Part shown: one piece after another, positions 27,078 to 52,412 of the stretch
Layout: each line of letters opens with the position of its first letter
Numbering within the stretch: position 1 is the first letter of the stretch
From: Tupaia tana
Taxonomy: Eukaryota > Chordata > Mammalia > Scandentia > Tupaiidae
DNA: 64,000 nucleotides
Assembly (NCBI GenBank): GCA_026018925.1
Contig: JAKSZU010000011.1
Span: 7,240,985 to 7,304,984, forward strand
Reading direction: 5' to 3'
The notes under the pieces: generated by a model
The model's input: only the letters and a program-made list of their open reading frames with translations
Database searches by the model: none
Told to the model about the DNA's origin: nothing
Position numbers and translations under genes: made by a program

Positions 27078-27181
27078 AGATACCATTCTTGGAGAGCTAA
27101 TGCTGATTTCCTTTGGAAGGAGGGGACCTGGTGCCTAGCCATTCAATACATTTGAGTGAGAAAAGAGAAGCCAAAGGCTTT

Positions 27182-27493
27182 GGGACCGGCCCCACAGCAT
27201 AGTGGTTATGCACTGTGCACAGATAGCCAGATTGCATACAGACAGCTGTGGTTGGAATCCCAGCCCTGGCAGCTTGCAAATCATGCCAGGTGCCTGGAGG
27301 CCCCAAATCATGACAGGATGGAGAAATGGAGGAGAAGGGATTCCAGTGTGACCACGCTCCACTGGGGAGTGCTTTTCTCTTTCTCTCTCTCTCTTTATTC
27401 TCCCCTCCCCCCCCCTCTGGTGAGCACACATGCTCTTTGGCAATTATAAAAAAGAAAAAAAGAAAGGAGGGAGGGAAGAAGGAAGAAAGAAAA
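27182..27493 (+). repeat. Old-type tRNA SINE with duplication
   Basis: GACCGGCCCCACAGCATAGT head, GGTTGGAATCCCAGCCC, ends TGCTCTTTGGCAATTATAAA plus a purine-rich tail. AGAAGCCAAWGGCTTT flanks it at 27166-27181 and 27494-27509; the second copy was then hit by the composite element. Confidence 0.9.
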
Positions 27494-28504
27494 AGAAGCC
27501 AATGGCTTTTTTTTTTTTTTTTTTTTTTTTATTTTTCTCAGATTAATTAAATTCATTTTACATAAAGTTCCCATTATGATGTATACAATATACATATATG
27601 TATATAGTTTTCAACAGAGAACTCTACTTTTTTTGGTGTTAACTGATTCCTCCTTTTGCCCCCCACGCCCACTTTCTACCACCCTCTCCTGACCACCCAC
27701 TCCCCTCCCTTACAGGCTCCGGCATCCACATTTATCCTTTCCACTATCATATCATTGGATCTTTTTCCTTCTGCCAGAGTGCCGATAATGTTATCATTAT
27801 TTTTTTTTCATTGGACATCTTTACAGTGTACAGCATGGTCCCTTCCAGCATGAGTATAGTTAACATTAGCCAAGACAATGATACCCCCACATACATCATC
27901 TTCAACAGACCACCCTTCACCCCTGTGTCCATCAAACGTGATGATCGTTCCCTGAACCGCCCTCCATCATTCATTCCCATTACCTCTCCCGTGCTGTCTC
28001 CAGCATCCGCAGTTGCCATCCCTGCGACCATACCCTCCAGATCTTTCATCCTTTTTTTTTTTTCCTTTTTCAATTATGAGCTCATAAAGTTTTCCACAAT
28101 AGGAAACATAGGTTCTATTCAGGGTTGGGTCAAGGGTGGGTCTCGTGCAGCTCCGCAGTTGTAGGTGAGTCTCTATGGAGTACAGTTTCAGGAACGCAGT
28201 TCTGGTAGGCAGAGACGGTTATCAGCTGATGCAGCACAGCATCCATCCTGTGATTACCGAGGATGGTGTTGTGGGGATCTGCAGCGTGAGTCATCCTCGA
28301 GTATCTGGCTTCCTTAAGAATGGTAGAATAGTTCTTATTTTTCCCTGAGGTAATGCAGGGCTGGTACCATCGCCTTCTCACTGCCCATAGGCAGCGAAAA
28401 TCCTCCTATACCATACATTTCTCAATTGGTTTAAGACATCCAAGGTTTCCTTCTTCTGCTTATATTTGCAAGATCTTAATCCTTGTTTTCGGCTTCAGTT
28501 TGCT

Positions 28505-29062
28505 GCTCGCAACCGCCGGTCACGTGCAGGCCCCGCGGTCACGGGCAGGCTCGTTGGCCACGCCTGGGCGCAGGCCCGGCAGCCATGCGCGGGCCCGGCG
28601 GCCACGCGTGGGCGCATGCCCGGCGACCACGCACAGGCCCGGCGATCACACACAGGCCCGGCGGCCACGCACGGGCACAGGCCCGGCGGCCACACACAGG
28701 ACCGGCGGCCATGCTCAGACCTGGTGGCCACTCGCCAACCTGGAGGTCATGCACAGGCCCGGGGGCCACTCGCAGGCCCGGGAGCCACACGCAGGCCCGG
28801 CGTGCGCCGGCCCAGTGACCACGCTCCGGCCCGGGAGCCATGTGTAGGCGCAGGCCCGGCGGCCATGCACAGGAGCAGGCCCGGCAGCCACACTCAGACC
28901 CGGCAGCCACTCGCCAGTCTGGGGGCCATGCGTGTGCCCAGCGGCCACTCGCAGACCCAGCGGCCATGCGCTGACCCGGCGGTCACGTGTAGGCCCGACG
29001 GCCACACGTCAGCCCCAAGCGCGCGCAACCACGCTCAGGCCCGGCGGCCACGCGCGGGCCCA
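28505..29062 (-). repeat. 19-bp minisatellite array (VNTR A)
   Basis: Plus-strand unit GCCCGGCGGCCACGCACAG, 19 bp, with a 25-bp variant carrying an extra GGGCACA-like hexamer. About 25 imperfect units. CpG sites alternate with TG/CA variants between units, as expected from decay of methylated CpG. Confidence 0.9.
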
Positions 29063-29244
29063 GCGGGCACACACCAGCCCCCGAGCACGCGAATGCGCGC
29101 GGGACCCAGCGCCACCTCCGGTTCGCCTGCCTGGTCAGAGTGCTGCCAGGCAGCGTCGGCGCCGAGCGCGGGACACACCCAGCGCCGGAGGGGCAGCAGG
29201 GGCTGGGCGGCCTCGACTGCGGAACGCGAAGCAGAGGCGCCGAG

Positions 29245-29586
29245 TGCCCAGAGTCGGGCAGCCCCGGTCCCGCGCGGGCCCAGAGGCGGGCGGCCCCGGT
29301 CCCGCGCAGGCCCAGAGGCGAGAGGCCCAGCGCGCCGGCCCCGGTCCCACGCAGGCCCAGAGGCGGGCGGCCCCCGGTCCCGCGCGGGCCCAGAGGCCGG
29401 CGGCCCCGCGCGCTGGCCGCGGGCCCAGAGGCGAGAGGCCCAGCGCGCCGGCCCCGGTCCCACACAGGCCCAGAGCGCGGGCCCAGAGGCGGGCGGCCTA
29501 GCGCGCCGGCCCCGGTCCCGCGTGCGCCCAGAGGCGGGCGGCCCCCCGGTCCCGCGCGGGCCCAGAGGCGGGCGGCCCCGGTCCCC
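29245..29586 (-). repeat. 32/45-bp minisatellite array (VNTR B)
   Basis: Plus-strand units start GGTCCCGCGCGGGCCCAGAG and end GGCGGGCGGCCCC (32-33 bp); a longer 45-bp version adds CAGCGCGCCGGCC. About eight to ten units, ending exactly at the target-site duplication. Confidence 0.9.
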
Positions 29587-29599
29587 GCCAATGGCTTTT

Positions 29600-51528: not shown

Positions 51529-52412
<884 letters not shown>

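Follow-up and report, generated by a model that had tools for sequence, protein, structure and literature searches.

The window analysed here is a stretch of 64,000 nucleotides, and the element under study occupies a block of 2,076 bp on its minus strand (27511-29586), enclosed by exact 13-bp copies of GCCAATGGCTTTT (Table 1). The sequence-only reading had described a 2.08 kb block between such copies, with two different CpG-rich arrays at its 5' end, an AATAAA signal and poly(A) at the other end of the minus strand, and no reverse-transcriptase coding. All of this is borne out: the two arrays have units of about 19 bp and of 32/45 bp, the signal and tail can be read from the sequence, and four frames of 27511-28515 contain no Pfam family above the cut-off (best 12.2 bits against 25). 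The description of the remaining 3' sequence, about 1 kb, as unfamiliar and unique stands in part only. It matches no Pfam family, but 430 bp of it are probably common to another repeat and the last 0.5 kb resemble old L1 3' ends.

A protein-coding role was rejected on the silence of Pfam and of the PDB, which has no match for a 91-aa frame. An RNA gene was likewise rejected, with nothing in Rfam at gathering score across the window and no tRNA found by ARAGORN. ORF1 and ORF2, the hallmark of an autonomous L1, are absent, and the 430-bp segment joins the tail without coding sequence in all 40 copies of the element that were read.

A SINE lies next to the element on the opposite strand. Its flanking repeats are identical at 15 of 16 positions, with one A-to-T difference, and the repeat at 27494-27509 overlaps the TSD of the element. 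There are thus three copies of one short target sequence around the SINE and the composite element. That both lie in one duplicated target gives independent support for insertion.

Table 1. Parts of the composite element and the adjoining SINE, with positions in the window.
Feature	Position	Strand	Basis
TSD copy at the 5' end of the element	29587..29599	-	exact 13-bp repeat
arr2, 5'-terminal GC-rich VNTR of 32/45-bp units, 8 anchors; proposed promoter	29246..29586	-	tandem repeats
Spacer between the arrays, 145 bp	29101..29245	-	aligned with arr1 in 37 copies, at least 95% coverage
arr1, diverged 19-bp units, near-constant length across the family	28510..29100	-	tandem repeats
mid, 430 bp, probably also in another, commoner repeat	28075..28504	-	36-mer counts
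Internal A-run, 12 nt here, probably a fossil poly(A) tail	28052..28063	-	family-wide A-run
Tail module 1, like an old L1 3' UTR	27808..28013	-	alignment to L034
Tail module 2, like an L1 ORF2 end and 3' UTR	27540..27800	-	colinear alignment to L048
AATAAA and terminal poly(A)	27511..27533	-	read from sequence
TSD copy at the 3' end of the element	27498..27510	-	exact 13-bp repeat
Neighbouring SINE (about 27182-27493) with its 16-bp flanking repeats	27166..27509	+	flanks 27166-27181 and 27494-27509

Elsewhere in the window, an ORF resembling a first exon is present on the minus strand at 51531-52412 and ends in sequence of the heparan sulfate 3-O-sulfotransferase 3 type, with a match of residues 237-293 to PDB 6xkg (3-O-sulfotransferase 3A1) at an E value of 2e-29. 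The Pfam Sulfotransfer_1 score of 21.5 bits is just below the cut-off of 22.

Copies and build of the element

The genome assembly searched is 2.95 Gb in 1,198 contigs. At least 40 places are 100% identical to the 430-bp mid (the best 40 of 2,871 first-look candidates) and at least 40 match a 500-bp tail query at 99-100% (the best 40 of 2,137 candidates). An exact mid 36-mer is found upstream in 31 of the 40 scored tail places. Forty copies were read: that of the window, 19 together with 10 kb of surrounding DNA, and 20 with flanks of 1.5 kb. Because these were selected by identity of mid, the family appears younger than it otherwise would.

Pattern counts across the whole genome identified 89 exact places for the mid 36-mer and 744 with 3 or fewer mismatches. 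At the same stringency there are 190 places for a module 1 36-mer, 163 for a module 2 36-mer (91 exact) and 164 for a probe of 35 places across the junction of arr1 and mid, in which the CpG sites were left open. Reversed-pattern controls gave 0 in all five counts. Among the matches listed, which carry 0 or 1 mismatch and so give lower bounds on pairing, at least 80 of the 89 exact mids are accompanied by module 2 in the same orientation and at the expected spacing, at least 77 of the 91 exact module 2 places have a mid, and at least 90 of 100 arr1-mid junctions have module 1 downstream. In the same matches, 9 of the 89 exact mids have no listed module 2 and 14 of the 91 exact module 2 places have no listed mid. 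From these counts, about 160-190 composite copies are recognisable at 3 or fewer mismatches. The family copies at C111:35934055 and 35940488 have the same orientation and a distance of 6,433 bp from each other, which could be a local duplication or two insertions.

For a family, the sequence-only reading had predicted many dispersed copies with arrays upstream and TSDs of their own, and for an L1 origin matches always followed by intact L1 ORFs. The outcome favours the family, with no L1 ORFs between the arrays and the tail in the 40 copies read. Its unique segments could have been single copy, and at least 40 identical mid places are dispersed in the genome instead. The other option that it raised, an internal deletion private to a single L1, is ruled out by the one ORF-less build that the 40 copies read have in common.

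The VNTR at the 5' end has a unit GC content of 0.87. CpG observed/expected is 0.86 in arr1 and 0.85 in arr2, compared with 0.48 in the window as a whole. Distances between CTCTGGG anchors allowed 37 copies to be parsed, with 5 to 64 anchors per copy, where counts from the 1.5-kb loci are lower bounds; the window copy, with 8, has one of the shorter VNTRs. Three 5'-truncated copies have no anchors. The spacings are mostly 32 bp (451), 45 bp (228) and 35 bp (85), and the order 45-32-32-43-32 recurs next to the spacer. Full-length arr1 matches are 95-99% identical in most of the 30 loci compared. We infer promoter activity for the VNTR because it is 5'-terminal and rich in CpG and because the monomers of mouse L1 are comparable, as far as the available part of that source describes them (PMC9022269).

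The excess of mid places (744 against 163-190) leads us to infer that mid is also part of a more numerous repeat, with approximately 550-580 places beyond what the other parts of the element account for. Older composites with other ends would be the alternative. Eleven one-mismatch mids are among the matches listed. None of these has a listed junction or module 1, and 2 have a listed module 2, which shows that some composites are missing from the matches listed. Examples of listed mid places without arr1 or tail are C111:3058653 and C220:3532775. No match in Pfam or the PDB points to a donor of mid, and mid has no significant score against four L1 ends. An A-run of 12-31 nt follows mid in 39 of the 40 copies, the 40th (L018) not fitting the search string, which is what the remnant of an old poly(A) tail would look like.

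After the A12 run comes a tail of about 0.5 kb, in which a further A-run precedes AATAAA. Module 1 is 77% identical over 216 aligned positions to a stretch in L034 that ends in poly(A). Module 2 aligns colinearly with an old element in L048, over its ORF2 end and 3' UTR; we take this element to be an L1 because it matches an ORF2 probe. The score is 54, where the best of 200 shuffles reached 47, and against the L034 stretch module 2 scores 55 (best shuffle 42). Module 1 has a marginal score with L048 (50; best shuffle 49). With the 3' ends of L052 and L053, two L1 copies with open ORF2 frames of 1,333 and 1,313 aa, the module 1 scores are reached by 46 and 8 of 200 shuffles and those of module 2 by 67 and 63, and blastn of the tail against these two ends gave no match. 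L050, also chosen as an L1 3' end, has no recognisable ORF2 end. On these alignments the tail resembles a stack of two older L1 ends rather than a present-day L1 end; the L1 origin is clear for module 1 through L034 only.

Insertion hallmarks and recent activity

The copies have a common 3' end, then poly(A), then differing flanks. A strict finder, in which the 5' copy of the TSD must abut the GC-rich start and the 3' copy follow A-rich sequence, identified TSDs in 17 of 37 copies, with lengths of 9-22 bp; among pairs of mismatched flanks the figure was 7 of 355. L035, L041 and L042 lack the exact 3' end string and are outside this test. Of the 20 copies without a TSD, 13 offered 0-6 boundary candidates, in most cases since flanks are short and the sequence read stops inside the array. 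The other seven were missed despite many boundary candidates (L001, L005, L013, L032, L045, L048 and L049). A looser finder adds TSDs for L013 and L041 and lengthens that of L047 to 15 bp; what it gave for L032 and L035, and the TSDs that it selected in L034 and L043, were judged spurious.

Target sites were compared in 18 insertions, being the strict 17 without L047 and with L013 and L041 added. There is an A at positions +1 to +4 in 16, 18, 15 and 15 of these, and a T at -2 and -1 in 13 and 12. The extension of a match to its first difference favours a non-A at -1, thus the A side is the stronger evidence.

In the 17 copies for which the strict finder gave a TSD, the VNTR directly abuts the 5' TSD, with no other domain 5' of it. 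The 5' ends fall at many unit phases, although four of these 17 starts cluster within 3 nt, at GGGACCGGGG. Truncation at the 5' end is seen in L001 and L005, in the arr1 region, and in L013, just before mid. Two copies are short at the 3' end: L042 stops at the A-run of module 1, and L035 breaks off near the beginning of module 2.

Divergence is low. In the tail, 38 copies differ by a mean of 0.43% in pairs and by 0.15% from the majority at non-CpG sites, and in the spacer and arr1 the figures for 37 copies are 1.05% and 0.27%. Few variants in these parts are common to several copies. At a neutral rate of about 2.2e-9 per year the age of the family would be of the order of one million years, a value that is biased low by the choice of copies with identical mids.

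Three copies (L037, L046 and L047) have 3' transductions, with extra DNA that closes with an AATAAA-like signal and a poly(A) of its own. The 260 bp of extra DNA in L047 have 20 matches in the assembly, of which just two, L047 itself and C264:59499581, are full length and 100% identical. The other 18 are partial, at 69-88%. The 401 bases that precede the C264 match contain no element, and the site reads TTTCCAT/AAAAGAAGTC. At L047 the 260 bp adjoin the element and are followed by poly(A) and the TSD. L047 is therefore the derived copy, as its 260 bp come after the element and end in poly(A) and the duplication. The simplest reading of these sequences would be that its source is on a haplotype outside this assembly, or has been lost. 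Because L047 carries the flank of a locus without the element in the assembly, the copying is recent.

The 69 bases of extra DNA in L046 are repetitive (the best 40 of 238 candidates were scored). Their matches are often paired 2-3 kb apart in an LTR-like manner, for example C531:105104112/105106277 and C220:21393748/21395890, as the LTRs of a short element would be.

Proposed mobility and alternative explanations

Taken together, the element is best seen as a young family of non-autonomous, non-LTR composite retrotransposons that arrived independently at the plan of the hominoid SVA, a reading to which we give a probability of about 0.86. From the L1-type site, the poly(A) and the lack of L1 ORFs of its own, L1 probably moves it in trans. 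Potential partners are present: 340 aa is a common length of the ORF1 frames in the best 150 of 43,929 ORF1 candidates, and 10 of the best 150 of 120,652 ORF2-end matches are in open frames of 1,195-1,333 aa.

In the proposed cycle, RNA polymerase II would start in or near the CpG-rich 5' VNTR. Transcription would proceed through the fixed array, mid and the L1-like tail as far as AATAAA and at times continue into the flank, as the 3' transductions support. The L1 ORF1 and ORF2 proteins may then take up the polyadenylated RNA in trans, and L1 would cut a site of the TT/AAAA type and copy the RNA in. The end products, duplications of 9-22 bp, variable 5' ends and poly(A), are observed. The element itself may have grown by the stacking of pieces that each end in an A-run.

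It is also conceivable, if unlikely, that a single L1 lineage with a 5' UTR of tandem monomers and its own 3' UTR lost its ORFs and was then amplified. The likeness of the tail modules to old L1 3' ends would fit such an origin, as would the variable 5' monomer arrays of mouse L1 in the portion of that source available (PMC9022269), and L051 has a 125-bp tandem unit upstream of ORF1. However, the tail looks like two stacked ends, neither of which matches the 3' ends of L052 and L053, and mid appears to be shared with a further repeat and lacks a significant score against the four L1 ends. Pfam finds no ORF remnants in the frames of 27511-28515. Nor are the 5' stretches of L051 and L054 like the arrays, except for A/T runs and one 26-base match (E 0.83), in a comparison that covers these two stretches only and in which L054 may stop short of the 5' UTR proper. 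The tandem unit of L051, at L051:720-972 upstream of an intact ORF1 frame, is present in two copies at 99% and a partial one near 1164; an L1 such as this may have its own monomer promoter.

It would be more surprising still if the copies were those of a retrocopied lncRNA with a CpG-rich minisatellite at its 5' end, all made from one master gene. The lack of an ORF, the 5' end like a CpG island and the poly(A) are compatible with this, and so is the near identity of the 40 copies read, which have few variants in common. Against it, L047 holds 260 bp from directly beyond another insertion site, meaning that a dispersed copy rather than one master locus served as template, and the VNTR ranges from 5 to 64 anchors among the copies. 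Segmental or tandem duplication of minisatellite DNA, which the minisatellite-like arrays and the C111 pair of copies, at 6,433 bp from one another in the same orientation, might suggest, is scarcely credible and was rejected, given the common 3' end with poly(A) tails, the differing flanks and the short private duplications.

Comparison with known systems

The host would not be a hominoid, judging by missing Alu. A probe for the Alu head has 0 hits in 254,000 bases (the window and the 19 wide loci), in which another type of SINE has 100 hits of at least 150 bp.

With HAL1 and other L1-dependent non-autonomous elements, the retrotransposon family described here shares an L1-like 3' end and a presumed dependence on L1 proteins. 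HAL1 keeps ORF1, whereas no L1 ORF was found here and the 5' two thirds of the element are not L1-like. It also differs from mouse L1, in which the monomers are about 200 bp, in that its units of 32/45 bp are much shorter and no ORF1 or ORF2 follows the array. The resemblance to mouse L1 is in the 5' UTR, which consists of tandem monomers and a tether in the available part of the source (PMC9022269); there, as here, a variable 5' array is followed by a fixed stretch and 5' ends lie inside the array.

There are close parallels with the VNTR composites SVA, LAVA, PVA and FVA, which are called hominoid-specific in the part of the source available (PMC4432496). As far as that text goes, the element has in common with them that it is non-autonomous, with a GC-rich VNTR of 30-50 bp units and a recurring unit order at one end, and that it has a segment from another repeat, poly(A), TSDs and a probable use of L1 proteins. 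In the same partial source, the SINE-R of SVA derives from a retrovirus, to which mid, as a piece of another repeat, is comparable, and LAVA has an L1-derived 3' piece, like the L1-like 3' piece found here (PMC4432496). The 3' pieces are set apart from the HERV-K, Alu and PTGR2 pieces of the hominoid families by description only.

There are also clear differences. A 5' region of CT-hexamers and Alu-like sequence together with the VNTR is given as common to all four hominoid families in the available text (PMC4432496), where the VNTR is central, whereas here it is 5'-terminal. In addition, this element has a second, fixed array of 19-bp units and two stacked L1-like ends. The presence of a 5' hexamer was judged by reading the 5' starts. 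Without a CT-hexamer/Alu-like 5' region the element is no member of the SVA group, though SVA-like in its working. The likeness to SVA drawn in the sequence-only reading is limited to the plan: the VNTR lies 5'-terminally and no Alu-like part was seen.

Among the titles and abstract openings listed from the open-licence literature, none describes such an element outside the hominoids. We consider it likely, with somewhat less assurance than for the family itself, that this is an independent, still segregating non-hominoid VNTR composite and that the SVA plan arose twice, here with the VNTR as a 5' promoter and with no Alu-like part. If so, VNTR composites would be a repeatable product of L1 systems, in which the Alu-like domain is dispensable. 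If source copies do segregate, as the one traced transduction suggests, the family could provide population markers. A second family with the SVA plan and no shared Alu-like part would be a natural replicate of the hominoid elements, through which one could test which of the VNTR, the 5' domain and the L1-like tail an RNA needs for L1 proteins, and whether CpG-rich VNTRs recur as promoters.
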